Shown piece by piece: positions 2,500 through 20,456 of a stretch of DNA of 64,000 nt (its first letter is position 1; each line of letters begins with the position of its first letter). The stretch lies in NCBI GenBank assembly GCA_020848545.1, contig JADLHZ010000044.1, positions 124,001 through 188,000 on the forward strand. The letters are read 5' to 3'. The position numbers and the translations under genes are program-made. The notes beneath the pieces were generated by a model, which did no database searches, had not been told where the DNA came from, and saw nothing but the letters and a program-made list of their open reading frames with translations. This DNA comes from Deltaproteobacteria bacterium. Its GTDB lineage: Bacteria > Myxococcota > JADLHZ01.

Positions 2500-5439
2500 T
2501 TGAAAGCGCCGCAGTTCGAGCCCGTGCCCCAAGAGACCCCGCTAGACCAAGAAGACGGTGAAGCGCCGTCCGCCCCATCGCCGCGCAATCCCTTGGAGCG
2601 CTGGCTCTATGGCCGCCCCGGCGTCGGGCCGAAGCACCACTTCGGCTACCGCGTCACCCCGCAAAGCGGCCGTGAGGGCCAACAAGGCGGCGTCATGGTC
2701 GAGGTGCTCTCGCGCGGCATGGGCCCGGCGACGACGATCGATCGCTTCATCGGCAGCCACAACCGCATCGACGTCGCCGATCGCCGCGTGTTCGACGTGC
2801 TCAAGCTCGGCGCGCTCGGGCCGCGCCAGATCTACATCGTCTCGCCGAACCACGCCGGCCGTTTGCTCAAGATGATGCAGGGGCTGAACGTCGTCGACGG
2901 GCGCACGCAAAAACCGCTGCAATGGAAGGGCGCGGTCACGGCGCAGATCGAAGATGCGCGCGAAGGCGAGCGGGTCCGGCTCAGCGTGCGTTGGAAGAAC
3001 GCCGCCGGCGACGCGCTGAACATTCAGCAGCACCCGTGGGCCGTGTTCGATGAATATCCCCCGGTGCTCTGGGTCGCTGGCCAAGTCTTCTTCGGCCCCG
3101 AGCGCCTGGTCGGAGAGACCCTCCGCCGCCTCTTGCAAGAGCCGAGCATCGACTTCGACGTCTCGGTGCTCGGGCAGAGCGTGTCGCGCTTGGAACACGT
3201 GCTCTCGGAGCTCGGCATCGATCCCGCGTGGCTCAGCGAGCGCCTCGCCGCGCCGACCGAGGACAAGCCGAAGATGAAGCTCGTCCTCTCGTTCGCCGGC
3301 GGCGCGCTGGCGGCAGAAGCGACGGTGCACGTGGGCCCGCACGCCTTCACCTTGCAGGACGGCGTCGACGTGCCGGAGGCCGTGTGGTTGCCGGCGGCGG
3401 CGCCGAAGTGGGCGACGCGCGTGCGCCGCGATCGCGAGGCCGAGCGCTCGGCGATCCAGATCCTGCGCGACGCCGTCTTCGTGCACGAGCAGAACGGCCG
3501 CTGGCGCATCACCGGCGACGACGCGTTGGACCTCGTCCGCCGCGAGCTCGCGCCGCTCGTCGGCCACTTCGAGCTGTTCTGGGTGAAGGCACCAGAGCCG
3601 CGCGCGTTTCGGCCGGATCCGTTGAAGTCGAAGCTCACTGTGCGCGAGACCGGCCGCGGCGATTGGTTCGAGGTGGCGGTCGACTTCGCGACGGGCGACG
3701 CCAAGGTGCCGATCGCCGAAGTCATCGCGCAGGTCGAGAAGGGCACCCGCTTCATTCAGCTCTCTGACGGCACCTACGCCGAAGCGACGCCCGCGCTCCG
3801 CCAAGCCGTTCGCGTCATGCAGATGCTCCTCGGCGATCGCACGGGCGGCGGCAGCACGGCGGTCGCAGGAAAAGCGCTCTTGAGCAGCAAGGACGTGGGC
3901 GATCTCGAGGGGCTGATGGAGGTCGTCGACGGCTTCGATCTGTCGGAGCTCTCGGACAAACACTTCGCGCCGCTCAAAGACTTCAAGCGCATCGACCCGG
4001 TCGACGTCCCGAAGAACTTTCAAGCGACGCTGCGCGACTATCAGAAGGACGGCCTCGCCTGGATGGTCTTCCTCAACGAGCGCAAGATCGGCGGCATCCT
4101 CGCCGACGACATGGGTCTAGGAAAGACCGTGCAAACGTTGGCGGCGCTGCATCACTTGTCGCTCGTGCAAGGGCGCAAGCCGTCGCTCGTCGTGTGTCCG
4201 ACGTCCGTCGTGGAGAACTGGGTGCGCGAGACGCACCGCTTTGTGCCGGACTTCATCGTGCACAGAATCGACGGCCCGCACCGCGACGAGTACCTCGCGA
4301 AGGCCAAGGACGCCGACCTGCTCGTGACGTCGTACGCACTCCTGCGGCGCGACTTCGACAAGCTGAAGGTGCTCGACCTCCGCTACGCGATCTTGGACGA
4401 AGCGCAGGCGATCAAGAACCCGCAGTCGCAGACCGCGCAGTGTGCCAAGGCGCTAAAGGCCGAGCATCGCCTGGCGCTCACCGGCACGCCGATCGAGAAT
4501 CGCCTCTCCGAGCTGTGGTCGATCTTCGACTTCGTCTCGCCCGAGCTGCTCGGCACGCTCACGGACTTCAAGGAGCGCTTCTTGTCGCCCATCGAGCGGT
4601 ACAGCGATCAGCCGACGCTCGAGCGCTTGCGCCGGCGCATTCGACCCTTCGTGCTGCGCCGCGAGAAGGAGGTCGTCGCCAAGGAATTGCCACCGAAGAC
4701 GATCTCGCAGGTGTTCTGCGACGTGCCGAAGGCGACGCAGGGCCTGTACCGGCAGATCGCCGACGTCGCCAAGGATCACCTGGCGGCGGTGATGAAGCAG
4801 AAGGGTTTCGAACGCTCGACGGTCTCGATCCTGACGGAGCTGCTCAGGCTGCGGCAGATCGCCTGCGATCCGCGCTTGCTGAAGAACACCGAGATCCCGA
4901 AGGGCGCGCTGTCGCCGAAGCTCGAGCCGTTCCTGGAGCTCGTCGAAGAGGCGCTCGACTCCGGCCGCAAGATCCTCGTCTTCTCGCAGTTCGTCGGCAT
5001 GCTCGAGCTGATCAGCGAAGGGCTCACCGAAAAGAAGACCGAGCACTTGATGCTCACCGGGCAGACGCGCCGGCGCCAAGTGCTCATCGACAAGTTCCAA
5101 GCCGACGACGGGCCGCGCGTGTTCTTGATCAGCCTGAAGGCCGGCGGCAGCGGCTTGAACCTCACCGCCGCCGACACCGTGATCCACTTCGATCCGTGGT
5201 GGAACCCGGCCGTCGAAGAGCAAGCGACCGATCGCGCCCATCGCATCGGCCAGACGAAGCCGGTGTTCGTCTACGAGCTCGTCGCGCGCAATACGGTGGA
5301 AGAGAAGATCTTGAAGCTCAAAGAGCGCAAGCGCCAGCTCGCCGAAGGTGTGCTCGGCGTCGACGCGGCGTTGAACAAGCTGCTCAGCGAAGATGAAGTG
5401 ATGGCCCTGTTCGACGTCGACGAGTGGCAAGACGAGTAG
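2500..5439 (+). CDS. SNF2-family DNA-dependent ATPase/helicase
   Basis: Large superfamily 2 protein of the bacterial SNF2/Swi2 class, which translocates on double-stranded DNA and remodels DNA-protein complexes; the cellular role of the bacterial members is generally unknown. 979 residues. The N-terminal half (1-510) has no recognised motif. The ATPase half has Walker A DDMGLGKT (Lys542), the DEAQ box (633-636), motif III LTGTPIENRLSELWS, and the C-terminal RecA lobe with KAGGSGLNL and the arginine-finger motif DRAHRIGQ (about residue 911). The start is TTG 2500 with GGGAG 9 bases upstream; the next in-frame ATG lies deep inside the gene. Only 35 bases separate it from the DGQHR gene, so the two may be co-transcribed. 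Confidence 0.92.
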   Translation: MKAPQFEPVPQETPLDQEDGEAPSAPSPRNPLERWLYGRPGVGPKHHFGYRVTPQSGREGQQGGVMVEVLSRGMGPATTIDRFIGSHNRIDVADRRVFDVLKLGALGPRQIYIVSPNHAGRLLKMMQGLNVVDGRTQKPLQWKGAVTAQIEDAREGERVRLSVRWKNAAGDALNIQQHPWAVFDEYPPVLWVAGQVFFGPERLVGETLRRLLQEPSIDFDVSVLGQSVSRLEHVLSELGIDPAWLSERLAAPTEDKPKMKLVLSFAGGALAAEATVHVGPHAFTLQDGVDVPEAVWLPAAAPKWATRVRRDREAERSAIQILRDAVFVHEQNGRWRITGDDALDLVRRELAPLVGHFELFWVKAPEPRAFRPDPLKSKLTVRETGRGDWFEVAVDFATGDAKVPIAEVIAQVEKGTRFIQLSDGTYAEATPALRQAVRVMQMLLGDRTGGGSTAVAGKALLSSKDVGDLEGLMEVVDGFDLSELSDKHFAPLKDFKRIDPVDVPKNFQATLRDYQKDGLAWMVFLNERKIGGILADDMGLGKTVQTLAALHHLSLVQGRKPSLVVCPTSVVENWVRETHRFVPDFIVHRIDGPHRDEYLAKAKDADLLVTSYALLRRDFDKLKVLDLRYAILDEAQAIKNPQSQTAQCAKALKAEHRLALTGTPIENRLSELWSIFDFVSPELLGTLTDFKERFLSPIERYSDQPTLERLRRRIRPFVLRREKEVVAKELPPKTISQVFCDVPKATQGLYRQIADVAKDHLAAVMKQKGFERSTVSILTELLRLRQIACDPRLLKNTEIPKGALSPKLEPFLELVEEALDSGRKILVFSQFVGMLELISEGLTEKKTEHLMLTGQTRRRQVLIDKFQADDGPRVFLISLKAGGSGLNLTAADTVIHFDPWWNPAVEEQATDRAHRIGQTKPVFVYELVARNTVEEKILKLKERKRQLAEGVLGVDAALNKLLSEDEVMALFDVDEWQDE

Positions 5440-5474
5440 CTTGCAATCACCTAAGACCGCTGTAAGCATGCAGC

Positions 5475-6593
5475 ATGCTCGCCACTCAGATTCGCCAAAA
5501 AGACGGTGTCTTCTACTTCGTCGCCTACCCGAGCGAAGACCTCTTGCACAAAGTGCGCTTCATCAGCCGCTTCTACGCCGAGGGTGACAAGATCGCCGCG
5601 GACGAGGTGGCTGAGAACGACGAGGTCGCGCAGTTCATCGCCAAGATCGAGTCGACCGACAAAGCGTTTCAGCGCCAGATGTCGAAGGCGAAGGTCGCGG
5701 CGATCAAGAACTTCTACGAGACCGCGGTGAGCCAGCCGCCGATCCCGGGCACGGTGCTCCTGTTCACGCCCGAGAAGCTCGGCTTCGAGAGCGTCGGCAA
5801 GTACGAAAACGTCGGCAACCTCGATGAGCCGCGCGAGAAGTACTTGATCATCGACGGCCAGCACCGGCTCGCGGCGCTGCAGTTCTACATGAAGCAGCGG
5901 CCGGACGAGGCGAAGGGCATCCACGTGCCGTGCGTGATCTTCGACGGCAAGAGCGAAGACTTCGCCACCGAGATGTTCGTCATCATCAACTCGACGCCGA
6001 CGCGCATCAACAAGAGCCACTTGGTCGATCTCTACGAGCGCGTGTCGTGGGCGGCGCCAGACAAGAAGTTCTCGGCGAAGGTCGTCGATCGCCTCTACAG
6101 CGAAGGCGACAGCCCGCTGCGCTACAAGATCAACCGGCTCGGCGGCAGGAGCAAGCAGGAGAAGTGGATCCTGCAGGCCGAGCTCTACAACGAAGTGCAC
6201 CGCTGGGTGAGCGCCTCGTGGCGGAAGCTGCAGAAGAAGGATCCGCAGCGCGAGCCGCAGAAGATGTACGAGACGATCCGCGACTTCTTCAAGGCGGCGG
6301 AGAAGGTGTTCGGCGACGCTTGGGGCAACGGCAACTACATGGTGACGAAGCCCGTGACGATCAAGGCGCTCCTGCGCGTTTGCGCCGATCTCGCGCGCGA
6401 GGATCAATCGCCCGACGATCGCCAGAAGCGCTGGGAGAAGCGGCTGTTTCCGTGGATCGATCAGGCGCGGACGTTTCGAGCCGAGGGCTTCTACGAGCGC
6501 TTCCCAGCGAAGGGCCAAGTCGAGCGCGTCGCGCGCATCCACAAGGAGCTCGCGCGCCTCATCAACGTGTCGACTAGCCGCGAGAAGGACTAG
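5475..6593 (+). CDS. DGQHR-domain protein (DndB-like)
   Basis: 372 residues. The defining motif IIDGQHRLAAL (Asp127-Gly-Gln-His-Arg) is intact, followed by FVIINSTPTRINKSHLVDLY, typical of the DGQHR family. This family includes DndB, the regulator of DNA phosphorothioate modification, and relatives in other DNA-modification islands; it has a ParB/sulfiredoxin-like fold. No dndA, C, D or E gene is visible here, so a phosphorothioation role is not supported locally. The gene follows the SNF2 ATPase by 35 bp. A short palindrome (AGCATG-CAG-CATGCT, 5465-5479) spans the chosen ATG and may mask or regulate the start; no strong Shine-Dalgarno sequence is seen. Confidence 0.85.
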   Translation: MLATQIRQKDGVFYFVAYPSEDLLHKVRFISRFYAEGDKIAADEVAENDEVAQFIAKIESTDKAFQRQMSKAKVAAIKNFYETAVSQPPIPGTVLLFTPEKLGFESVGKYENVGNLDEPREKYLIIDGQHRLAALQFYMKQRPDEAKGIHVPCVIFDGKSEDFATEMFVIINSTPTRINKSHLVDLYERVSWAAPDKKFSAKVVDRLYSEGDSPLRYKINRLGGRSKQEKWILQAELYNEVHRWVSASWRKLQKKDPQREPQKMYETIRDFFKAAEKVFGDAWGNGNYMVTKPVTIKALLRVCADLAREDQSPDDRQKRWEKRLFPWIDQARTFRAEGFYERFPAKGQVERVARIHKELARLINVSTSREKD

Positions 6594-8879: not shown

Positions 8880-10511
8880 TCACATCGGCGAGTCGGACAG
8901 GAAGTCCACCTTGCACGGCGTCTCTTTGCCGGGCTTGATCGTGAAGTTGGCACGCTTCTCGCCGAGCTTGCTGTTCTTGAACAAGACGTCGTGCTTGCCT
9001 GGCGCGAGCGGTAACTTCGCGCCGAGCTGCAGCTTTCCGTACGACTTACCGTCGACGTAGATCTCCGCCCACTGCTTCAAGACGCAGTTCAAGACACCGT
9101 TCGCCGGGGCTGCCTCGACGACCTTCTTCTTCGGCTCCACCTTCGCCGGCTCTTCGACGGCTTCGCGCTCTTTCGGCACGACCGGCACGTCGACGCCCGC
9201 GGTCGGCACCGGGAGCGCCGCTGGATCCTTGGCCGCCGCTTCCACTGGAGGCGGCAGCGGCGGTGCGACCGCGACTGTTGCTTTCGGCTTCTGCGGCTGC
9301 AGCGCATACGCGGCGGCGGCGATCGCGACGATCGCTGCGACGGCGACCCCGGCGATGAGCCCCCACGGTCGCGCGCGCGCGGGCGCCTTTGCCGGCTGGG
9401 TCGACGACACCGTCACGATCGACGTGTGCTGCGGCATCGGCGTCTCGGTCGACACCGCAGGCTTGCCGACGATCGTCGGCATGGTCGTTGGCCGCGTCGG
9501 CGTCTGCAGCGCGGTCGCGCCGGTGACGACGTTCGTGACGGTGTGCTCCGCGATGTCCGGCACCGTCGTCGGCGTCGGATTTTCGGAGACACGGTTCGCC
9601 GGCGCCGGGGCCGCTGCACCCTCGCCGCCGCGCATGTACGCCGCCGACTCGTCCTGGTGGCCGGGGTACTTTTGCTCGAGCGCCTTCCACAGCTTGCGCG
9701 CCTCTGCCGCCGTCGGCCGATCGGCCGCTTCTTCGGCGAGCATCGCCTCGACCGCCGCGATCACCTTCGGATCGTAGTTCGGCAGGTGCTCGGCGAGCGG
9801 CCGGCGCTTCTTCATCATGATCTGCCCGGCGATCTCGAAGGGCGTGTTGCCGGGGTAGGGTGGCTTGCCGCTGGCCAAGAAGTAGAGCGTGCCGCCGAGC
9901 GAGAAGATGTCGCTCTTCATGTCGAGCGTGACGCCCTTGATTTGCTCGGGCGACCAATACTGCGGCGTGCCGAGGATCTTCGTGCCGAAGCTCTGCGCGA
10001 GCGTGCTCGAGACCTCGTTGTTGGTCGCACGCGCCAAGCCGAAGTCGAGCACGACGAGGCGCCCGTTGTTGCAGAGGTAGAGGTTGCCCGGCTTGATGTC
10101 GCGGTGGACCACGCTCATGCCGTGCGCGGTCTCGAAGGCGGAGAGCGCTTGCAACGCCACGTCGACGAGCACCGCCTCCGGCATCGGGTGCCGCGTGGCG
10201 ATCGCGTCCTCGAGATCGAAGCCTTCGAGCAGCTCGGTGACGACGTACGGGATGCCGTCCACCGTCTCGCCGTGATCGATGAGCTGTAAGACGTTCGGGT
10301 GATCGATCAGCATGAGCGCCTTTAGCTCGCGGCGGAACCAGCCGCGGATGGTCTCCGCCTGATCGTTCGTCGGGACGTAGATCTCTTTGAGGGCGACGCG
10401 CTTGCCGTTCTTGCGGTTGGTCGCTCGAAACACGCGCGCCATGCCGCCCGAGCCGATCTGGGCTTCGAGCAGGTAGCGATCGTCTACGACCATGCCGACG
10501 TTCAGACTCAT
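8880..10511 (-). CDS. Hanks-type Ser/Thr protein kinase with C-terminal PEGA-like domain
   Basis: 543 residues. The kinase domain is complete: glycine loop IGSGGMARV, catalytic Lys42 in RVALKE, catalytic loop HRDIKPGN (Asp138), DFG at 156-158 and the SPEQ segment. A Pro/Thr-rich linker (about 270-370) leads to one transmembrane helix (about 375-400) and a C-terminal beta-rich domain resembling PEGA (AEIYVDGKSYGKLQL...LAPGKHDVLF), probably periplasmic. ATG 10511 overlaps the stop of the upstream DWDD-protein gene (ATGA), so the two are translationally coupled, suggesting the kinase acts on or with that system. Substrates unknown. Confidence 0.93.
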   Translation of the reverse strand: MSLNVGMVVDDRYLLEAQIGSGGMARVFRATNRKNGKRVALKEIYVPTNDQAETIRGWFRRELKALMLIDHPNVLQLIDHGETVDGIPYVVTELLEGFDLEDAIATRHPMPEAVLVDVALQALSAFETAHGMSVVHRDIKPGNLYLCNNGRLVVLDFGLARATNNEVSSTLAQSFGTKILGTPQYWSPEQIKGVTLDMKSDIFSLGGTLYFLASGKPPYPGNTPFEIAGQIMMKKRRPLAEHLPNYDPKVIAAVEAMLAEEAADRPTAAEARKLWKALEQKYPGHQDESAAYMRGGEGAAAPAPANRVSENPTPTTVPDIAEHTVTNVVTGATALQTPTRPTTMPTIVGKPAVSTETPMPQHTSIVTVSSTQPAKAPARARPWGLIAGVAVAAIVAIAAAAYALQPQKPKATVAVAPPLPPPVEAAAKDPAALPVPTAGVDVPVVPKEREAVEEPAKVEPKKKVVEAAPANGVLNCVLKQWAEIYVDGKSYGKLQLGAKLPLAPGKHDVLFKNSKLGEKRANFTIKPGKETPCKVDFLSDSPM

Positions 10512-11044
10512 TTGGCTTTCTTCGTGCGCTCCTCGACGTAGCCCTTCACGGTGAAGCCGACTTGCTGAAGGAACGCTTTTTCCTGATCGAGCACGCTCTG
10601 GGTCACCGGCGAGCGCATGTCCGGATCGTTCTGCATCAGCCAATCGACGAGCTGCGCGCGCATTTGGTGCGAGAGCTCGTCCTTGGCCTTCTTCAGCTTC
10701 GCCATCTCTTCGTCGATGCGCTTGTTGCCGTTCGCGAGGCGCGTCTTGAGCTCCTTGAACGCAGAGACGACGTCGCTCGAGGCTTCGACGCCTTTGCTCG
10801 CCGGCTTCTGCGTCGCGCCGACCGAGGCGGGCTTCGTGACGCCGACCGACGCCGGTTTTTTCGCTTGAGCCTCGGCGATGGCTTTTTGCGTTTGCGCTTG
10901 ATTCGCCTGATCCAGCGCGACGTTGGTCGTCATGCCGCGCTCGCGCAGGGCAGGGTTCATCTCGAGCAATTTGCGCACGACGTCCGGCGACACCGTCTGC
11001 TGCGCGCGATCCCCGAGGGCGTCGTCCCAGTCGTCATCCGCCAT
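10508..11044 (-). CDS. DWDD-type coiled-coil protein, copy A
   Basis: 178 residues from ATG 11044. Not a family I recognise, but clearly paralogous to the protein at 15885-16433. Shared elements are an N-terminal DWDD-x-LG, then SP-x5-LL-x-MNP-x-LRE-x-G, a low-complexity linker (KPASVG repeated), a helical coiled-coil region, and a C-terminal motif KAFLQQVGFTVKGYVE. The product is probably cytoplasmic, as there is no signal peptide. It is divergent from the large protein gene A (109-bp gap) and overlaps the kinase gene, so it probably acts with both. Confidence 0.8.
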   Translation of the reverse strand: MADDDWDDALGDRAQQTVSPDVVRKLLEMNPALRERGMTTNVALDQANQAQTQKAIAEAQAKKPASVGVTKPASVGATQKPASKGVEASSDVVSAFKELKTRLANGNKRIDEEMAKLKKAKDELSHQMRAQLVDWLMQNDPDMRSPVTQSVLDQEKAFLQQVGFTVKGYVEERTKKAK

Positions 11045-11100
11045 GGGACGATCGTAGCATGGCCTCGCACATCGGCTCGACATTTGTCTGAGTCCGGCCG

Positions 11101-11119
11101 GCGGCGGGAAGAACAGTCA
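11101..11119 (+). promoter_or_regulatory. Possible shared upstream motif, copy A
   Basis: GCGGCGGGAAGAACAGTCA lies 34 bases before the start of the large protein A gene. It resembles 16463-16482 (before large protein B) and the minus-strand site 15811-15830: GCGGCGG, a short spacer, then AGTC. GCGGCGG is common at this base composition, so the match may be chance. Confidence 0.25.
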
Positions 11120-11153
11120 CCCGCTCGCGACCTCTATGGTAGATCTTTGCACT

Positions 11154-14100
11154 ATGGTGACCGTCAACAACAACCGCGTCGATCGCCCCGTCGTCCCTGA
11201 TTCCGCTCCGCCGGAGGCGACTGACGCGGGTAAGGTTCCGGAAGCGGCCCAGCAGCAGCCGAAAGCCGCTGATGCCAAGAGCGCCGCCCGCGCGAATGAG
11301 ACGGCGAAGGACAGCCTGAGCACCCAGGGCAAGGAGGGCGCGGGCGTCAAGAAAGGGGAGGCGGCGCCTGGGCTCGTCGAAGTGCCGCCGCGCGCGCCGG
11401 TCACTCCGGAAGGGACGCGCCTGGCGGCCGAAGGGTTTGCGGCGCTCAGCGTCGCGCTCGGCGGCACGATGCCGCCCGGGGAGGTGGCGCCTTTTCTCGG
11501 GGTGAACCTAAAGAGCCTGGACAAGCCCTGCGGAACGCTGTCGTCTTTACTGAGCTCGAACGCGATGGCTTCGGCGCTCTCGGCGATGAACAAACTGCAG
11601 TCGGGCGAGTGGACCTCGGCCCCGCCGGCGCTCATGGACTCGATCACTTTGGTGACGGCCGAGCTCGACGGGCGCGCCAGCAGCATTTCCAAGAAGAGCT
11701 TCGACAAGCTGGCGGCGCCGCAGCAGCAAGCGGTGAACGACGTCGCCAAAGAACTGTCGCCCATCTTGGCGGCATCGATCGCCTTTGAAAGCGGCGAGAA
11801 GAAGGCGAGCAAAGAAGAGAGCAAAGCGAGCGACGCGGCGGCGACGGCGAAAGCGGAGAAGAGCGATCGCACGAGCAGCGGCGACAAGATCCACGGTGTC
11901 GGCGGCGATCGCGGCGGCGGTGCACAAGACGGCGATCCGAGCGCCGGCAACGCGCAGCGCATGACCGCGGGCGAGGCAGCCATCGACGGCGCGTCAACCA
12001 ATCGGGCCGGAGATTTGCGCAACCCCTCGGCGAGCGGACGCCGCGTCAATGAGTCGCGCGGGTTTCGCGAGGACACGCACGCGCGCGCCGGCCTCGATCC
12101 GTCGGTGATCGAGCTGCCGGGGCACGACGTCATCACGATGGAGCGCGCCATTGGCTCGCGCTACAGCCTGCTCGCCGGCGGCGACGTCGAGGAGCTCGTC
12201 AACATCGTCATGATGCAAGTCGCGCGCGACTCCGAGACCGATCTGCGCGACCTCATCAAAGAAGTGCAGAAGCGCAACGCGGAGAAGAAGCAGGTGCGCG
12301 AGTTCATTGCGTCGGCCAAGAAGCAGGAAGCGGCGATGAACACGCAGCTCCGCGCGCGTTACGACGAGCGCGTGGCGCTGCCGGCCGGAAATCCGCGGCG
12401 CATCGATCCGCGGGTGACCAGCTTCGACGCGTTCAAAGACTCACAGAAGATCGCCATGCGCGCGGGCGGGTTAGCCTCGCCGGACGGGGAGTTTCTGCCG
12501 CCAGGCGATCCGGCGTTCAGCTTGTCGTCGCGCGAGACCTTGTACGCGCAGTCGCCGGAGGAAGCGCGCGATCTTCAGGGCAACGTGATCCCCGAGAGCA
12601 TCGTGCGCTTCGCCGAACGGCTGCGGGTGAGCCCACAGCAAGCCATGGGCCTCAAGCGGGTGTGGGACGGTGACAACGCTTTGCAGGCGCGCTTCGGGTC
12701 TTTCGAGCGCTGGCTCTGCGAGACGAGCGCCAACGGCGGCCTTGGGTTGCGCGCCAATCCCACGCAGGAGCAGGGGCCCCTGATTGCGCGCTTCTTGCAG
12801 GAGCGTGACCCCGTGGCGGTCAACCGCGCGCTCGCGACGAAGTTTCACGTTTCGCTCGCCGACCTCGAGGTGATGCGCAACCACTTCGACACCAAGCTGA
12901 ACGAAACGCAGCGCGCTGGCGGCTTCGAGGCGTGGCTGAAGTCGTCGGCAGGACCTGGCCTGACGGAGGCCGGGTCGGGCGAAGAGAACTCGGGCAAGAT
13001 CGAGCGCTTTTGCACGCAAGCGGAAGTCGACGCCGCCGAACGCCGCATCACCGGCCGCTTCGGCATTTCGCACGCGCAGTACCGGGCGCTCTCCGACTAC
13101 TTCTCGGAGATGCAGCGCACCGGCAACGCGAGCGGTGAGCTCGAGGCGTGGCTCACCGGGACGGTCGGCTTGCGGCCCGGCGAAGGCACGGCGAACCCCG
13201 GTCGCGTCCGCGATTACATGACGCAGGAGCGTGCTCGGCTCACGACACCAGGCGCAGCGCCGGGTGCTCAACCCGGAAACGAGACGCGCAACGTTCCGGC
13301 ACCGTATACGGCGACGCGCACCGACGGCAGCTCGTTCAGTCAGGAGGAGGCCGTCGCGTGGATCAACGGCTGCCGCACGGACGCGCCGCTGCCGCTGAAC
13401 CAACGCAACAGCGACTCGAACAACATCCGCTTGATCGTCAACCAGGCGCGCGGGCGAGTTGGGCTCGAGGCCGACAACATCGACAACCTGCTCGGCGATT
13501 ACCTCGAGGAGGTCCTGATCAAGGGACACTACGAAGCGCATCCCAACGTCGACAACCACGGGCGCCACGGGCAAGACGCCGCCAGCAAATGGAGCGCGCT
13601 GCGCGACGCCATCAACCGACTGCCCGAAGGCCAGCGCCAAGCGGCCGCGAACTACGTGCAGCTGCGCATGGCGGAGGTGCGCCGAGACGTCGAGATCGCG
13701 CGCAAGTGCGATGGCACTGCGATGGAGAGGAAGGGCGGCGGGACCCCGGCTGCGGCCCAGGATCCGTGGCTCGTCGAGCGCGGCATCGTGTATTGTCCGT
13801 GGGCGCATGGGCAAAATCACGTGCGCGGGCTCGACGGCGCGTACAACCATATGGACGAGGCCGCCTGGCAGCGCGCGGCAAACAACGTCAACCTCACGCC
13901 GGACTGGGGCAGCGCCACGCCCGGCACGCGGCCACCCGAGCCGCACGGGCCGCCAGCGCCGGGCCCGTCGGCGGCGACCGATCCGGCGAACGCTGGCCGC
14001 ATGGCCGTCCTCGATCGTTTCGCCAACGGCGGCTACACAACGACGATCACGATCGGAGCGATCTTCATCATCCCTGGCGTCACCGGCGGCGGCGCCGGCG

Positions 14101-14417
14101 GTGGCTCGACGACGCCGACTCCGCTCGGCAACCCAAGCGCGGAGGTGAGCGCGGCGATGGCAGCGATGCGGCAGGAGCAAGCCTCGGGCGGTGGCGTCGT
14201 CGGCCGGGAGAGCGCCCCTGAGATGACGCTCGCGCAGCTGCGGGCGACGATCGAAGAGTGGGAAGGCAAGAAGGACACACTCGGCGACCTCAGCGAGCAA
14301 CTCTCGCTGAAGCTTCAGATGTATCAGGATCGCCGCGCGAAGATGTACTCGACGCTGTCGAATATCCTGAAAAAGAATTCCGAGACCTCGAGCCAGATCA
14401 TCTCGAACCTGAAGTGA
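11154..14417 (+). CDS. Large repeat-containing protein A (unknown; possible exported substrate)
   Basis: 1087 residues; I recognise no named family. It is paralogous to the 1170-residue protein at 16519-20031. The first 90 residues are low complexity (Pro/Ala/Lys), without a Sec signal. A conserved block (about 318-447) contains AIGSRYSLLAGGDVEEL, ARDSETDLRDL, an EKKQVREFIASAKKQ helix and TSFDAF. Three tandem units of about 73 residues follow, each containing a GxFExWL-type motif (12696, 12918, 13134). A hydrophobic Gly-rich stretch lies at about 961-984. The C-terminal 64 residues are a coiled coil ending LSNILKKNSETSSQIISN. I chose ATG 11154 over 11136 because MVTVN then aligns with the paralogue's start MTITK. 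A TPR gene follows after 7 bp. The layout suggests a chaperoned export substrate or structural protein; this is inference. Confidence 0.85.
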   Translation: MVTVNNNRVDRPVVPDSAPPEATDAGKVPEAAQQQPKAADAKSAARANETAKDSLSTQGKEGAGVKKGEAAPGLVEVPPRAPVTPEGTRLAAEGFAALSVALGGTMPPGEVAPFLGVNLKSLDKPCGTLSSLLSSNAMASALSAMNKLQSGEWTSAPPALMDSITLVTAELDGRASSISKKSFDKLAAPQQQAVNDVAKELSPILAASIAFESGEKKASKEESKASDAAATAKAEKSDRTSSGDKIHGVGGDRGGGAQDGDPSAGNAQRMTAGEAAIDGASTNRAGDLRNPSASGRRVNESRGFREDTHARAGLDPSVIELPGHDVITMERAIGSRYSLLAGGDVEELVNIVMMQVARDSETDLRDLIKEVQKRNAEKKQVREFIASAKKQEAAMNTQLRARYDERVALPAGNPRRIDPRVTSFDAFKDSQKIAMRAGGLASPDGEFLPPGDPAFSLSSRETLYAQSPEEARDLQGNVIPESIVRFAERLRVSPQQAMGLKRVWDGDNALQARFGSFERWLCETSANGGLGLRANPTQEQGPLIARFLQERDPVAVNRALATKFHVSLADLEVMRNHFDTKLNETQRAGGFEAWLKSSAGPGLTEAGSGEENSGKIERFCTQAEVDAAERRITGRFGISHAQYRALSDYFSEMQRTGNASGELEAWLTGTVGLRPGEGTANPGRVRDYMTQERARLTTPGAAPGAQPGNETRNVPAPYTATRTDGSSFSQEEAVAWINGCRTDAPLPLNQRNSDSNNIRLIVNQARGRVGLEADNIDNLLGDYLEEVLIKGHYEAHPNVDNHGRHGQDAASKWSALRDAINRLPEGQRQAAANYVQLRMAEVRRDVEIARKCDGTAMERKGGGTPAAAQDPWLVERGIVYCPWAHGQNHVRGLDGAYNHMDEAAWQRAANNVNLTPDWGSATPGTRPPEPHGPPAPGPSAATDPANAGRMAVLDRFANGGYTTTITIGAIFIIPGVTGGGAGGGSTTPTPLGNPSAEVSAAMAAMRQEQASGGGVVGRESAPEMTLAQLRATIEEWEGKKDTLGDLSEQLSLKLQMYQDRRAKMYSTLSNILKKNSETSSQIISNLK

Positions 14418-14424
14418 GGCCCAC

Positions 14425-14826
14425 ATGACCCAGGAAGAAGCGGCGGACATCTGCGGGCGATATGGCTGGCAAGCGTTGCAAGCGAACCAAGTCGACGTCG
14501 CGGTCGTCGCCTTGCGTCAGGCGTACGGCTTGGCCACTGCGCGCGCCGATCGCGCGGCGGCCTACGGCATCGCGCTCGCGAAGGCGAACCAGATCGATGA
14601 AGGCGTCGCATACTTGAAGAAGAGCCTCGAGCTCGACCCCGCCAACATCGAAGTCTGGTGCGTGGTCGGTGAGCTCACGCTCGACATGATGGACTACCAG
14701 GGCTCGCTCGCGGCGTTGAAGAAGTGTCTCGAGCTCGATCCCAAGGCGGCGCACCCGTCCGGCCGCCGCGCCCGCGCCCTGATCAAGAAGGGCGAAAAGT
14801 TGCTCAAGCAGGCGCTCGCCGGCTGA
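14425..14826 (+). CDS. Small TPR protein A (putative dedicated chaperone)
   Basis: 133 residues made of about three tetratricopeptide repeats (the clearest is YLKKSLELDPANIEVW, then LKKCLELDPKAAHP), ending in a basic helix RARALIKKGEKLLKQ. Two paralogues in this window (14906-15370 and 20052-20456) share that tail. The size and all-TPR architecture match class II type III secretion chaperones such as SycD/LcrH, but also many scaffold proteins. It lies 7 bp downstream of the large protein A gene, with GAGG before its ATG, so it is almost certainly co-translated with its likely partner. Confidence 0.85.
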   Translation: MTQEEAADICGRYGWQALQANQVDVAVVALRQAYGLATARADRAAAYGIALAKANQIDEGVAYLKKSLELDPANIEVWCVVGELTLDMMDYQGSLAALKKCLELDPKAAHPSGRRARALIKKGEKLLKQALAG

Positions 14827-14828
14827 CC

Positions 14829-14913
14829 CGCGAAAAGGGCGCGAAAAGGGACCGGGGAGCATTTCGCGAAAAGGGACCGGGGAGCGTCAGCCTTCCGGGG
14901 AGCGTTCAGCCTT
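14829..14913. repeat. Nested REP-like repeats between convergent TPR genes
   Basis: The 21-base unit beginning CGCGAAAAGGG and ending GGGGAGC occurs at 14840-14860 and 14865-14885, with a truncated copy (CGCGAAAAGGG) at 14829-14839. A second overlapping repeat starting CCGGGGAGCG and ending CAGCCTT occurs at 14877-14894 and 14895-14913, running into the stop of the convergent TPR gene. A lone relative (AAAAAAGGGACCG) occurs near 59269. Intergenic GGGACCG-type repeats resemble REP elements; no transposase is nearby. Confidence 0.8.
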
Positions 14914-15370
14914 GGGTGAGCAGCTTCTCGCCTTTTTTGATCAATGCGCGCGCGCGTAGGCCGTGCGCGTTCTTGGCGTTCGGATCGAGCTCGAGGCACC
15001 TGCGCAGGGCGGCCGCCGCCTTCTTCCATTCCATCTCGTCCATCGCGAGCTCGCCGAGCACGCACCAGGCTTCGATGTTCTTCGGGCGCAGCTCGACCGC
15101 CCGTTCGAGCGCCAGGATCGCTTCACGGCGCTGGCTGTTCTTGGCGAGGGCGAGGCCGAGCGCGGCCCAGTAGTCCGGATTTTTCGGCTCGCGCCGCGCC
15201 AACTCGCGAAAGAGAGCGGCGGCGGTCTTCGGATCTTGCAAGAGCGCTTGCCAGGCGAAGCACGCGAGCGTCTCGTTCTCGCGCGCGAGCGCGGCTTCCG
15301 GACTCTCGTTGACTGACGCCTGCTCTGGCGCCTCGGGCATGGCGCCGGGCTCGGTCCCGGTCTCAGTCAT
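14906..15370 (-). CDS. Small TPR protein C
   Basis: 154 residues from ATG 15370. An acidic, Pro/Glu-rich N-terminal tail (about 35 residues) precedes three tetratricopeptide repeats (for example YWAALGLALAKNSQRREA and LERAVELRPKNIEAWCVLGE), then the RARALIKKGEKLL tail also found in TPR protein A. It is transcribed opposite to TPR A, and its start overlaps the stop of the 143-residue protein gene by 8 bases, so the two are probably coupled. By analogy with A and B, that neighbour may be its partner. Confidence 0.8.
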   Translation of the reverse strand: MTETGTEPGAMPEAPEQASVNESPEAALARENETLACFAWQALLQDPKTAAALFRELARREPKNPDYWAALGLALAKNSQRREAILALERAVELRPKNIEAWCVLGELAMDEMEWKKAAAALRRCLELDPNAKNAHGLRARALIKKGEKLLTQG

Positions 15371-15794
15371 GGGTCTTCGCGCCTGCATTGTTCGGAAGGG
15401 TTGGGCTTTCGCTGAGCTTCGTCGCGACCGCTTGTGCGTTGGCCTTCTCCTGAGCCGTGAGCGCGCGGTCCCACTGCGGGAAGCTCATCTCTAAGAACCC
15501 GGCGACGCGGCCCTCGGGTCGCCCGCTCTCGACGAGCGCGCTGAGCGCCTTGAAGTCGGCTGCGGCTTCGCTCGGGGACGACGCGGGATCGGCGGTCGCC
15601 GGTGCGGTGCCTTGGCCGAGGAGCTGCTTCAGCGCCGGTGAGAGCGGGCTCGGCGCTTCGCTTGTCGTCGCCGCGTTGCTCGTTGCGGCGGTCGTCGCGG
15701 CGGTCTCGGCGGCACGCTCCGGTGCGGCCGCGGCGTCTGTCGTCGTCTCTCCCGGCGCCCGCGGCGGCGGCGAGTCTTTGATGCGCATGCTCAT
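15363..15794 (-). CDS. Small Ala/Thr/Pro-rich protein coupled to TPR protein C
   Basis: 143 residues from ATG 15794, with AGAGG 7 bases upstream. The first 60 residues are low complexity (Ala, Thr, Pro, Ser) and probably disordered, as in the two large proteins. The rest is helical, with FLEMSFPQWDRALTAQEKA. No family recognised. Its stop overlaps the start of TPR protein C, mirroring the [large protein]-[TPR] order of the two main modules on a smaller scale. It may be a small substrate or partner of that TPR protein (inference). Confidence 0.7.
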   Translation of the reverse strand: MSMRIKDSPPPRAPGETTTDAAAAPERAAETAATTAATSNAATTSEAPSPLSPALKQLLGQGTAPATADPASSPSEAAADFKALSALVESGRPEGRVAGFLEMSFPQWDRALTAQEKANAQAVATKLSESPTLPNNAGAKTHD

Positions 15795-15810
15795 ACCCGT
15801 ACCTCTTTCC

Positions 15811-15830
15811 GTAAGACTACAGCCGCCGCC
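15811..15830 (-). promoter_or_regulatory. Possible shared upstream motif, copy C
   Basis: On the minus strand this reads GGCGGCGGCTGTAGTCTTAC, 16 bases before the ATG of the 143-residue protein gene. It resembles the site before large protein B (AGCGGCGGCAACAAGTCTAC). The different distance to the start codon weakens the case for a promoter element. Confidence 0.22.
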
Positions 15831-15884
15831 ACAGAGCGTCGACCAAGGTTCAAGGCGGTGGTCTCAGACAGACACTTGTCGCCC

Positions 15885-16433
15885 TCACTTCGTCCCGTGC
15901 TTGCGCTTGAACTCGACGAACGCCTTCACCGAGAAGCCGAGCTTGTCGAGGAACGCCTTCTTGTCGGCGAGCGCCTGCTGCGTCATCGGCGAGAGCAGCT
16001 CCGGATCCTTGTTGATCAAGACGCGCATGAAGTCCTCGAGCGTGCTCTGCTTGGCGCGCGCCTTCTCGACTTGGATCTGCTGAAGCTGCAGATCGAATTG
16101 CTGCTCGTCGAGCTCGAGCTTGCGCTTCAACGTGTCGAGCTCGCTGAACACGTCGCCGGCGGCGGCGGGCTTCGCCGCCGGCGCTGCGGCCGCGGCCTTC
16201 TGCTTCTGTGATCCCTGGTGGGCGGCTTTTTGTCCGCTTGAGACAACCCACGCCGTGTTCTTGCCCTCTTCGCGGAGCTTCGGGTTCATCGAGAGCAGCG
16301 TGCGCGCCATCTCGGGCGAGATGCCGCTTTGTTGCTCTTCGCCGAGCATGTCGTCCCAGTCTTCCTTCTCGGCGGCTTTCTTGGCCGGCGGAGCGGACGG
16401 CGGCGGTGCGTTCGACGGAGGTTTCGGTGCCAT
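15885..16433 (-). CDS. DWDD-type coiled-coil protein, copy B
   Basis: 182 residues from ATG 16433 (an in-frame TTG at 16457 could add eight). It is paralogous to the protein at 10508-11044: after a Pro/Ala/Lys-rich tail come DWDDMLGEE, then ISPEMARTLLSMNPKLREEG, an Ala-rich linker, a coiled-coil region rich in Gln/Leu/Lys, and KAFLDKLGFSVKAFVE. It diverges from the large protein B gene with an 85-bp gap, as copy A does from large protein A. Unlike copy A it has no adjacent kinase gene. Function unknown. Confidence 0.8.
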   Translation of the reverse strand: MAPKPPSNAPPPSAPPAKKAAEKEDWDDMLGEEQQSGISPEMARTLLSMNPKLREEGKNTAWVVSSGQKAAHQGSQKQKAAAAAPAAKPAAAGDVFSELDTLKRKLELDEQQFDLQLQQIQVEKARAKQSTLEDFMRVLINKDPELLSPMTQQALADKKAFLDKLGFSVKAFVEFKRKHGTK

Positions 16434-16462
16434 GGCTCCCAGCAGTCTGCCGTACAATTGTC

Positions 16463-16482
16463 AGCGGCGGCAACAAGTCTAC
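16463..16482 (+). promoter_or_regulatory. Possible shared upstream motif, copy B
   Basis: AGCGGCGGCAACAAGTCTAC lies 36 bases ahead of the large protein B start, almost the same distance as the similar site at 11101-11119 from large protein A. The equal spacing is the main reason to list it. Confidence 0.28.
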
Positions 16483-16518
16483 ATGGCCGCACCTACATGC
16501 GTCGGTTAAGGTTGCGGC

Positions 16519-19500
16519 ATGACGATTACTAAGGTGCCGCAGGGAACATCGGGGCAACCGATGTCGGTCGAACCGCCGCCGCAGGACAAGACGCCGCCGA
16601 AGACGAACGAGAAGAAGTCGCCAGGCGAGACAGCGAAAGCCGAAGCGCAGCCCGGGGCGCAAGCGAAGAAGACCGACGGCGTCAGCAAGGTAGCGGTGCC
16701 GAACCAAGACGAGCTCGTCACGCTGCGCCTTCGCACGATGTCCGACACCGGCGTCGTCGTCCATGACGCGCCGCCGGTCGCGCCGCCGACGAGCGACGGC
16801 AAGCTGCAGGCTGCGCTCGATCTCTTCAACGGGCTCGCGGCGCAGCTCGGTCAGGCGCAAGGGACTCCTGCGGCGAAGTTTGCGGCGAGCGTGGCGGTGC
16901 CAAAAGCGCTCGCAGGGTTGCCGGAGCTCGCGCTCGGCCGCGAGCAGACGCAGGCCATCGTCATGGTGCACACCTTGGTCGCGCAAGGGGCGATCAAGTT
17001 GCCCGCGGCGATGCAGCAAAAGCTCGACGCGCGCTTTGCGTTGGTGACCTCGCCGCCGCCGTCGAGTGGAACGGTTCCGCTCACGCCAGCGCAGCAGCAA
17101 GCAGCGCAGCGCATCGCGGCGGCGTTCTTACCGGTGCTGCGCGGGATGCAAGGCACTGGGCGCGTCGACGCGCGGACGGCGATGTTGATGCGCTTCGACC
17201 CGCGGCGCGCGGTCGACGTCGAGGACGACGCTGAGCTCGCGATGCTGCCCGCCCCGATGCGGCGCGCGTTGTCGCTCGCGCTCGGCATCGGCGGGGACGA
17301 GCCCGGCGGCGCCGAGGCGACCGGCGGCGCGCAGCGGCAAGTGAGCGACGCCGACGAGACCGGATCGCTGCGCGAAGACAGCGGCCGTGGCACCGAGACC
17401 GCGGGGATGCGCCAGCCCACGACGGATGCGATCGAGGGGCGCCAGCGGACCGGCGAGAGCGATCTCGCCACGCTCGATCCGATCACCGTGCCCGGCCCCG
17501 AGGTCATCGCCTTCGAGAAGGCGATCGGCGGCGACATCTTCGCCCTCGCCGGCGCCGACGTCGAGATGCTCTGCCAGATCATGATGATGGAGCTCGCGCG
17601 CGACGCCGAGGTCGACCTCCGCGAGACGCTGAACGATATGAAGAAGATCAACGACGAAAAAGCGCAGATGCGCGAGCACATCGCGGCCGCAAAGGAGCAG
17701 GCGACCGCGATGAAGAGTGCGTTGCGCAGCGAGTACGATCGCCGCTGCGCGCTGCCGAAGGGCCCGCCGGGAGATCACATCGACGCGTCGGTGACGAGCT
17801 TCGACGACTATTGCGCGTCGCAGAAGCTGAGCTTGCTCGGCGGTTCGCTCGCCCCGGACGGAGACAGCGTGGTTCCGACCCCGCCGCCCGAGTTCGGCAT
17901 CTCACCGAACACGACGCGCTATCCGCAAGCCACCGAGGCGCAGGAGACGTGGAATGGCTATACGGTGACCGACCAAGATCGCGCGGTGGCTGATCGCCTC
18001 GGCATCGACGCGACGCAAGCGACCGCGCTACGCCGCACATGGGACAACGATCCGAAGCTGCAGGCGAAGTTCAGCGGCAGCTTCGAAGAGTGGATCGTGC
18101 GCAGCCAAGACGAAGGCGGCGTCGGCCTCACGGTCGGCGGAACGGAGTCGCAAAAGGCGGCGGTCACGCTCTATCTCGCCCGTCACGATCCGGCGGTCGT
18201 CACCGACGCGGCGGCGAGCAAGTACAGCCTGAGCCAAGAGCAGATGACCACGCTCTACCAGCACTACACGGCGAACCTGAGCGAGGCCGAGCGACAAGCC
18301 GCTGGCGGCACTTTCGACACGTGGCTCGCGAACGAGCTCGGCATGAGGCCGGGGATGCAGCGGCACAACACGACGCAGATGAACCAGTACCTCGCCGGGT
18401 TCGAGACGGACGCCGACATGCAGCGGATGATGGATGTGTACGGCGTCGCGCCGCACGATCTTCACGCGCTCCACGACGTCTACAACACGCTCGACGACAA
18501 GCCCGCGACCTTCGAGGAGTTTCTGACTTCGGCCGTCGGCCTCAGCGAGAGCAACGTCGGCGGGAACGACGGACGCGTGGGGACCTATTTCTACCAGCTG
18601 GCCGTGCAGGCGAGCACACCAGCGGCTGCCGCAGCCGCACCGACCGGGCCACCCGAATACACCGAACGCGACGCGGCGCTCTTCGATCAATGCTGCGATG
18701 CCGCGCAGGGGCATGTTCCGACCGACAGCAACACGTACAGCCCTGAGGAACAGTACATTCTCGATACGATCGCCGCGATCGAGGAGAGTGTTCCGGCGGC
18801 CGTCAAGGCACAGATGGAGGAGATCCTGTCCGCCGTTTTGCGCTCGCTCTTCGCGTCGACCGCCGGCGGCGGTGGCGACAAGGGTGCGCAGCAGCAGCCG
18901 GTCATCGACTTCCTGACCAAGCTCGTGGATGCGCAGGACGCGAACGGGATGATCACCGCGTTGAACGAGTTTGCCGCCAACGGCCAGTTCGCGAACTTTT
19001 CGAGCGGCGCCGAGTTTGCGAACGCGTGCCACAACCTCGCGAGCCAGCTGCGCGGAAGCCCCGAGCTATTCGATGATGTCCACGAGTGGTTCCGGGGGCG
19101 GACGATCATCTGCCAAAACGACCTTGTCTATGGCGAGACGTACTACCAGCCGCGCGGGAACGAGAATTCTTGGATGTCCGATCGAGTCTTGCACAGCGCG
19201 CAGGGCTCGGGCGCCCGCAACCACGTGCTCTATGCGAGCTACAGTGAAGGCTGGCACCTCAGCCAATCGAACTTCACGACTGCGCGTTCTGCGCTCGACA
19301 GCGTCTTCGCCAACTTGCGCGGCGCGGAGCGCGAACGCGGCCCGAGCGAGCCGGAGGAAGCGCCCCCGGCACCGCCGCTCAGCGATCGCGAGAAGGACGC
19401 GATTCGCGAGATCGCTGTGCGCCGTCGAGAGGCTGGCTTGCTCGAAGACTTGATGGCCAGCGGCACCGCGCCGCCGCCGCCCGACGCGGAGACGCTGAAC

Positions 19501-20031
19501 CGGCCGCTCAACGAGGACGACCTCGACCGCATGCAGGAGCTCGAACGCCAGCTCGGGGGCGCGATCTTCGCCGCCATCTTCGGCTCTGAAGAAGCGATCG
19601 CCATGCTGCAAGGCGACAGCCCGCAGATGCGCGAGTTCTGGGAGTTGAAGTATCGGCGCGCGCACGAGCTGGGCGTCGAAACCCAGACGCCAGAAGACAG
19701 CGGCGACACTTTCGGTCGCGATGGCCGCGGCGGGCTGTCCGATCTCAGCGCTGAGCAACGCGCCGCGATGGAGGCGCTGCGCACAGCGCCACAGACGAAC
19801 ATCGATCAGCCGTCGCAAGTCGGCGGACTGCGCGAGATGTCGCTCGAAGAGCTCAACGCCTACATCGACGAGTGGAAAGACAAGAAGGAATCGAAGGCCG
19901 AGCTCGGCGAAGAGATCTCGCTGAAGATCCAGATGCAGCAGGACCGCCGCGCGAAGGCCTTCACCACGCTCTCGAACCTCCTGAAGAAGTGGAGCGACAC
20001 GAGCGGCGCGATCATTGCGAACATGAAGTAG
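16519..20031 (+). CDS. Large repeat-containing protein B (unknown; paralogue of protein A)
   Basis: 1170 residues from ATG 16519, with AAGG 6 bases upstream. Layout as in protein A: a Pro/Lys-rich disordered N-terminus, the conserved block at about 324-454 (AIGGDIFALAGADVEML, ARDAEVDLRETL, EKAQMREHIAAAKEQ, TSFDDY), then three repeat units marked by GSFEEWI (18076), GTFDTWL (18307) and ATFEEFL (18505), a divergent central-to-C-terminal part, and a C-terminal coiled coil in which QDRRAKAFTTLSNLLKKWSD matches protein A closely. The central parts differ more than the ends, suggesting an old duplication with diverged functional middles. No Sec or Tat signal. A TPR gene follows after 20 bp. Confidence 0.85.
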   Translation: MTITKVPQGTSGQPMSVEPPPQDKTPPKTNEKKSPGETAKAEAQPGAQAKKTDGVSKVAVPNQDELVTLRLRTMSDTGVVVHDAPPVAPPTSDGKLQAALDLFNGLAAQLGQAQGTPAAKFAASVAVPKALAGLPELALGREQTQAIVMVHTLVAQGAIKLPAAMQQKLDARFALVTSPPPSSGTVPLTPAQQQAAQRIAAAFLPVLRGMQGTGRVDARTAMLMRFDPRRAVDVEDDAELAMLPAPMRRALSLALGIGGDEPGGAEATGGAQRQVSDADETGSLREDSGRGTETAGMRQPTTDAIEGRQRTGESDLATLDPITVPGPEVIAFEKAIGGDIFALAGADVEMLCQIMMMELARDAEVDLRETLNDMKKINDEKAQMREHIAAAKEQATAMKSALRSEYDRRCALPKGPPGDHIDASVTSFDDYCASQKLSLLGGSLAPDGDSVVPTPPPEFGISPNTTRYPQATEAQETWNGYTVTDQDRAVADRLGIDATQATALRRTWDNDPKLQAKFSGSFEEWIVRSQDEGGVGLTVGGTESQKAAVTLYLARHDPAVVTDAAASKYSLSQEQMTTLYQHYTANLSEAERQAAGGTFDTWLANELGMRPGMQRHNTTQMNQYLAGFETDADMQRMMDVYGVAPHDLHALHDVYNTLDDKPATFEEFLTSAVGLSESNVGGNDGRVGTYFYQLAVQASTPAAAAAAPTGPPEYTERDAALFDQCCDAAQGHVPTDSNTYSPEEQYILDTIAAIEESVPAAVKAQMEEILSAVLRSLFASTAGGGGDKGAQQQPVIDFLTKLVDAQDANGMITALNEFAANGQFANFSSGAEFANACHNLASQLRGSPELFDDVHEWFRGRTIICQNDLVYGETYYQPRGNENSWMSDRVLHSAQGSGARNHVLYASYSEGWHLSQSNFTTARSALDSVFANLRGAERERGPSEPEEAPPAPPLSDREKDAIREIAVRRREAGLLEDLMASGTAPPPPDAETLNRPLNEDDLDRMQELERQLGGAIFAAIFGSEEAIAMLQGDSPQMREFWELKYRRAHELGVETQTPEDSGDTFGRDGRGGLSDLSAEQRAAMEALRTAPQTNIDQPSQVGGLREMSLEELNAYIDEWKDKKESKAELGEEISLKIQMQQDRRAKAFTTLSNLLKKWSDTSGAIIANMK

Positions 20032-20051
20032 CTCGGCGATAACCATCGCCC

Positions 20052-20456
20052 ATGGCACCTCCGCTAGAAGCCGAGCGGCTCGCGCGCATTGGTTGGGCCG
20101 CGTCCGAAGCGAACGAGCACACGCACGCGGTCGCGGCGCTCGAGCAGTGCGTGCGCCTCGCGCCGAATCACGTTCCGTACTTGAACGCGCTTGGCCTAGC
20201 GCTGGCGCGCGCGCTGAAGCCGGTCGAAGCGCTGCCGTATCTGCTGAAGAGCCTCGCGCTGAAGCCGGACGACATCGAGATCGCCTGCGCCGTCGGCGAG
20301 ATCAGCGTCGAGCGCTTGGACTACGAGACCGCGGGGAAGTGGCTGAAGCAGTGCCTCACGCTCGACCCGAAGGCGCAGCACCCGGCGGGCGTACGCGCGC
20401 GTGGGCTGATCAAGAAGGCCGAGAAGCAGCTCAAGAAGTCGCTCGGCAAGGCGTGA
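20052..20456 (+). CDS. Small TPR protein B (putative dedicated chaperone)
   Basis: 134 residues, three tetratricopeptide-like repeats (ALEQCVRLAPNHVPYLNALG, YLLKSLALKPDDIEIACAVGE, WLKQCLTLDPKAQHPAG) and the same basic tail (ARGLIKKAEKQLKK) as TPR proteins A and C. It follows the large protein B gene by 20 bp. Its stop overlaps the GTG of the permease gene (GTGA), so the permease may be translated from the same message, though functional linkage is doubtful. Confidence 0.85.
   Translation: MAPPLEAERLARIGWAASEANEHTHAVAALEQCVRLAPNHVPYLNALGLALARALKPVEALPYLLKSLALKPDDIEIACAVGEISVERLDYETAGKWLKQCLTLDPKAQHPAGVRARGLIKKAEKQLKKSLGKA

Follow-up and report, generated by a model that had tools for sequence, protein, structure and literature searches.

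Large variable proteins with a tail resembling the type III needle subunit in a genome of the Myxococcota

Introduction

Which kind of system is encoded by two neighboring gene sets that share one layout, namely a DWDD protein gene on the minus strand followed on the plus strand by genes for a large protein and a small all-tetratricopeptide repeat (TPR) protein? Both sets lie in a 64,000-nucleotide stretch (the window; positions 124001-188000 of contig C44) of a genome of the phylum Myxococcota (8.0 Mb, the sole representative of its family in the genome listing). The initial annotation took them for chaperoned exported or structural proteins of an undescribed system. Herein, we describe how the large proteins end in a 60-residue domain (CT) with sequence similarity to SctF, the subunit of the type III needle. 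With moderate confidence, we propose that each set encodes a type III substrate with an SctF-like tail and its dedicated TPR chaperone, the variable middle of the substrate being displayed or delivered.

The phylum gives this question some weight. Myxococcus kills its prey by means of a Tad pilus and a type III secretion system (T3SS), designated T3SS*, which is said to be without secretin, needle, and translocon and whose effectors are unidentified (PMC12075869). For the basal myxobacterial T3SS group, Abby and Rocha inferred a loss of SctF, since similarity searches should have detected it; from the lack of SctF and secretin they argued that effector delivery is not a function of these systems (PMC3459982).

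Likeness of the tail to the needle subunit

To what extent does CT resemble a needle subunit? We scanned 32 CT domains of the genome individually against Pfam and NCBIfam. The family most often found in Pfam was T3SS_needle_F (10 of 32, best E-value 1.6e-6, under the curated cut-off), and in NCBIfam it was III_needle/SctF (9 of 32, best 2.3e-4, likewise under the cut-off). Reversed CT sequences matched zero T3SS families, and no family was found in more than 3 of the 32. When a CT profile was compared with all PDB sequences, the best match (E 0.0065) was chain F of 7y6c, a 43-residue chain labelled as a needle-protein co-chaperone in its record; its length suggests the candidate reading that this chain is a bound needle helix. 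One single CT sequence gave just a weak match to the SipB coiled coil in the PDB (E 1.1).

The similarity is carried by an invariant Q, S, and N and a near-invariant final N. CT thus shares with SctF (MxiH, PrgI, YscF, EscF; PF09392, TIGR02105) the C-terminal helix profile, the invariant Q and SN, and the terminal I..N.[KR], as well as a TPR gene alongside. The case for homology is built on consistency across libraries and on gene position (discussed below) rather than on one decisive score. Unlike SctF, which has about 80 residues (generally 70-90), the window proteins have 1087-1170 residues (1093 and 1170 when read from the first ATG), are present in many copies, and are encoded outside any T3SS locus and not beside sctI-sctJ. 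Because neither size nor gene position fits, we classify them not as SctF but as proteins that are linked to the T3SS and bear an SctF-like tail.

Short relatives at type III secretion loci

Where, then, would the needle subunit proper be found? In 17 of 20 selected genomes we could place SctJ-type genes (TIGR02544), weak FliF-like matches counted in; 20 SctJ loci were taken, and genes were called in 19 of them. CT was found in 14 of the 339 genes at these loci. All 14 encode short proteins (148-209 residues) and lie upstream of sctI/sctJ on the same strand, seven of them 8-201 bp away, six roughly 1.6-1.7 kb away and adjoined by a TPR gene, and one 3.1 kb away; at 5 of the 19 loci the CT profile gave no match. 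The order sctF-sctI-sctJ is common among T3SS genes, as in prgI-prgJ-prgK. The three Pfam families most often matched by the CT tails from T3SS loci were T3SS_needle_F (6 of 15), HrpF (5), and HrpA pilin (2), and the NCBIfam matches were III_needle (4) and HrpA pilin (2). One family of the phylum has two T3SS loci per genome. The short CT proteins also have in common an N-terminal region containing a hydrophobic stretch of the PGG.IVSAAVSS type (L136 12565-13146, L143 6710-7279, L144 10124-10591, and L149 10061-10510, among others), which may have a separate function.

On a broader scale, of 195 genomes in the phylum, 161 have a CT match at E<=0.01. Compared with T3SS-type SctJ in the same genomes, 151 have both, 30 have neither, 10 have CT only, and 4 have SctJ only (Fisher 2e-22, uncorrected for the relatedness of the genomes). 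Scans of named genomes with the large proteins, and with a CT protein from a T3SS locus, gave no relatives, records of or near the window's genome possibly being excluded.

The loci examined here are of the same kind as that of T3SS* in Myxococcus xanthus (mxan_2434-2464), in that a compact cluster combines the genes for SctI and SctJ with others. In contrast to the published descriptions (PMC12075869, PMC3459982), they contain an SctF-like CT gene. At the level of sequence, this suggests that the SctF of the phylum was overlooked rather than lost, which challenges the published 'needleless' T3SS. For the needle that was reported missing, the SctF-like gene beside sctI-sctJ, together with linked TPR chaperones, would be a concrete candidate; the families of CT-tailed proteins would be candidate T3SS* substrates.

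Needle-like tail or tip and translocator protein

Could the large proteins instead be tip, translocator, or EspA-like filament proteins, placed on the end of a separate needle and served by TPR chaperones of the LcrH/SycD class? Their architecture would then be a coiled coil of two helices, one in NB (a helical block common to the large proteins) and one at the C-terminus, with the variable domain inserted between. An AlphaFold model of a large protein agrees with this in outline: long helices in NB (residues 351-413) and CT (1032-1092) flank the helical domains of the middle region, the overall confidence of the model being low (pTM 0.32). As far as this model goes, such an arrangement would be compatible with a tip or EspA-like protein as well. 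A Foldseek search of the PDB with it gave nothing at E<=0.001. In addition, some CT members match the models of SipB (1.1e-4), SseC, SseB, or EspA, and several TPR proteins, TPR C of the window among them, match LcrH/SycD. A 521-residue CT relative from elsewhere matches both NolX (1.4e-6, above the cut-off) and HrpK1 (2e-5) ahead of its CT tail, and in this it is like the NolX/HrpF and HrpK translocators (PF05819, PF16937); the window proteins, however, match neither model. Two observations speak for the needle instead: CT sequences match needle families more frequently, and with better scores, than those of tips or translocators, and the short CT relatives occupy the position of sctF. We therefore consider a tip or translocator role unlikely, though it is the rival to be taken most seriously.

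Several findings weigh against a needle-derived tail and should be set beside those that favor it. The SipB, SseC, SseB, and EspA matches leave room for a tip or translocator role, the needle scores of single CT sequences all stay under the curated cut-offs, and reversed decoys reach an E-value of about 7e-4 for unrelated families. A profile made from the T3SS-locus CT proteins alone matches no needle in the PDB, and the large proteins exceed a needle subunit in size by a factor of 10-15. Lastly, SctJ was not found in the window's genome, where SctN, SctC, and other parts were not searched for.

A genome-wide family of modules

Is the pair of sets an isolated duplication? The window families are present at about 20 further places in the same genome. 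Starting from the two large proteins, a profile search led to a third one on contig C59, which has TPR and DWDD genes of its own, and a profile of CT (last 65 residues) matched 31 places, a deeper one 36. The annotated loci encode 33 CT proteins of 292-1412 residues, with NB upstream of CT in all but one. The two sets of the initial annotation are thus both real, but they are two among about 33 relatives, and simple local duplication was dropped as their explanation for this reason.

All 24 DWDD genes of the genome lie inside a CT locus, and in 21 cases a same-strand TPR domain starts 2-301 nt after CT, the small TPR gene beside the substrate being what is expected of class II chaperones. Several further CT genes head a tandem pair, with a single TPR gene after the pair. 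The proposed likeness of this linkage to that of type III chaperones and substrates is accordingly borne out, and the co-occurrence of the families, which had been suggested as a check, is strong. Some copies depart from the full layout. NB-containing proteins without a CT tail adjoin full modules (L072 12169-13455, L086 13047-14159), and two diverged CT proteins of about 550-610 residues have no adjoining TPR or DWDD gene (L184 8061-9887 on C125, L185 8093-9739 on C98).

Similar arrangements are found in other genomes. In several genera of one family, a gene for a CT protein of about 350-565 residues is followed by a TPR gene and adjoins RuvX-like and M48-peptidase-like genes (named by eye); a similar CT-TPR pair adjoins a RuvX-like gene in another family (L108). 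One CT protein of this kind is the relative with the NolX and HrpK1 matches. A compact DWDD-CT-TPR operon is present in a genome of another family (G189, L095), and G192 (L092) has a DWDD gene immediately upstream of two genes for large CT proteins. The distribution of the module thus extends beyond the window's genome.

The copies are unevenly conserved, with a mean identity of 40% for CT, 33% for the TPR proteins, 28% for NB, and 16% for the variable middle of 166-770 residues between NB and CT. An alignment of 20 members contained no stretch of sufficient conservation to be used in a scan. Distances among the TPR proteins track those among the neighboring NB (r=0.51) and CT (r=0.39) sequences (permutation P=0.0005), a correlation that co-duplication by itself could also produce. 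Divergent middles and some 33 copies would also be expected if the large proteins were T3SS effectors or toxins, CT serving just as a docking tag for the TPR protein and the middle as the active part. A Pfam scan of 20 members, however, gave no enzymatic family, only scattered weak matches, mostly to coiled coils; no immunity-like partner was noticed, and a tail common to the relatives at T3SS loci is a better fit for a structural part, so that we hold an effector role to be improbable. That CT is a generic coiled coil with a convergent likeness to the needle, in a module for an unrelated cytoplasmic or structural assembly, is very improbable, for although short amphipathic helices give rise to chance matches and the PDB profile of the T3SS-locus members matched no needle, this would leave aside the position upstream of sctI-sctJ, the co-occurrence with SctJ, the linked TPR genes, and the negative control with reversed sequences.

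TPR and DWDD proteins

What kind of chaperones would the TPR proteins be? They are like the LcrH/SycD (TIGR02552) and SctG/YscG/EscG chaperones in being small all-TPR proteins encoded directly next to the substrate gene. The TPR protein on C59, those of the T3SS loci, and TPR C of the window match TIGR02552 weakly to moderately, but none attains its cut-off (38.8 against 104.8 bits for TPR C). For TPR A and TPR B no TIGR02552 match was listed, and generic TPR models fit them better. Alignment of the TPR proteins with the PDB was uninformative because generic TPRs dominate.

The DWDD protein is modeled fairly confidently (pLDDT 81.5) as all-helical, with a 48-residue helix, and a Foldseek search of the PDB with this model gave nothing at E<=0.001. 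Comparison of 19 DWDD proteins with Pfam, and of DWDD with PDB sequences, gave scattered weak matches, mostly to coiled coils. Its constant linkage by itself suggests an accessory factor or second chaperone. The system is not wholly undescribed: the C-terminus of the large proteins resembles the needle subunit of a phylum-wide T3SS, and it is DWDD that has no assigned function.

Export apparatus and proposed mechanism

Does the genome provide a route of export? Outside the flagellar cluster (C153) we found SctR followed by S- and T-like genes, the latter two assigned from position and appearance (C84), SctU followed by a 161-residue protein and an LcrH-like TPR protein (9e-22; C140), and SctV (C123). 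Unlike those of M. xanthus, the T3SS genes are thus scattered. A 587-residue SseC-like translocator candidate (8e-5, under the cut-off) is encoded beside a DWDD gene on C7. In the same region (L100 13659-19901 with L083 2-4894), an apparently continuous open reading frame (ORF) of >3,600 residues lies beside the DWDD gene and is followed by the SseC-like protein. A gene group on C102 (about 111-122 kb; L077 6277-12999, L097 688-5244) encodes a 389-residue CT protein, four TPR proteins, a 621-residue coiled-coil protein, a 290-residue protein with a clear hydrophobic segment, and a 1518-residue protein, and looks like a translocator operon. Two proteins of the group are coiled coils, the hydrophobic segment lying in one of these.

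TPR chaperones of the EscG/YscG type bind needle subunits. By analogy, the TPR protein encoded next to each large protein would bind its SctF-like C-terminal helix, prevent the tail from polymerizing in the cytosol, and carry the large protein to the export gate, formed by SctV/SctU together with SctR/S/T, all of which the genome encodes. Once exported, the tail would join or cap the T3SS filament of this phylum, while the middle region, which is variable, would be exposed outside or delivered into a target cell. DWDD, encoded alongside, would act as an accessory factor and might be a second chaperone. Similarity, gene order, linkage, and co-occurrence are what we observed; from these we infer chaperone binding, secretion, polymerization, display or delivery, and the target. 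More tentatively, and at somewhat less than even confidence, we put forward that the 'needleless' T3SS of the phylum has a cryptic SctF beside sctI-sctJ, and that in this lineage dozens of large variable proteins acquired the domain by fusion. The needle or tip would then have decorated or interchangeable components, every one with a TPR chaperone of its own, which would probably be used against other cells. If true, some 33 giant proteins with needle tails would represent an unusual route to diversifying a secretion machine.

The two gene sets in the window

How do the two sets compare in detail? The layout that had been described (two large, three TPR, two DWDD, and one small disordered protein) holds, as all ORFs are present with good coding scores. 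In the first set, DWDD protein A is encoded at 10508..11083 on the minus strand (likely start ATG near 11044; DWDD profile 7e-53) and large protein A at 11136..14417 on the plus strand. The latter has 1093 residues from the first ATG and 1087 from the second (11154), which is the likely start as it agrees better with the N-termini of the family. Its NB block lies at 12108..12749 (plus strand; residues 325-538, profile 3e-72) and includes the predicted 63-residue helix at residues 351-413, and its SctF-like CT domain, predicted to be a single long helix, lies at 14232..14414 (plus strand; residues 1033-1093, profile 1e-27). TPR protein A (14425..14826, plus strand) starts 8 nt past large protein A. 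In the second set, DWDD protein B (15885..16457, minus strand; likely start ATG near 16433; profile 6e-55) is followed by large protein B (16519..20031, plus strand; 1170 residues), with NB at 17482..18129 (plus strand; residues 322-537, profile 7e-75) and the SctF-like CT at 19846..20028 (plus strand; residues 1110-1170, profile 2e-27), and by TPR protein B (20052..20456, plus strand), which has TPR matches. Between the sets, both on the minus strand, lie TPR protein C (14906..15388; LcrH/SycD match 6.9e-10, under the family cut-off) and a small disordered protein (15363..15794), which gave no match in scans of the family libraries and whose N-terminus (MSMRI...) resembles that of the large protein on C59. 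The ORF P0004 opposite the third TPR gene was judged non-coding.

The relatedness of the sets, as claimed before, is evident from BLASTP: large proteins A and B are 36% identical across 464 residues (5e-67) and 49% identical in the final 100 (9e-20), the DWDD proteins match at 8e-22, and the three TPR proteins match pairwise at 4e-18 to 3e-33. As sequence similarities, these are far above chance. The absence of a Sec or Tat signal also stands, the N-termini being hydrophilic and the first 50 residues containing no strongly hydrophobic 15-residue window. The three repeats reported in each large protein are weak: self-BLASTP found none, whereas the iterated NB profile recovers two more copies in each, at residues 562-609 and 625-679 of large protein A and 561-606 and 625-675 of large protein B.

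As to the neighboring genes, a Ser/Thr protein kinase gene (PF00069, 1.6e-39; window 8880-10643) directly adjoins DWDD A. Farther away, an SNF2-type helicase gene is followed by a DndB-like gene (PF14072, 7e-11) at 2500-6593, and a 4610-residue protein predicted to be secreted or at the surface is encoded at 31006-44838.
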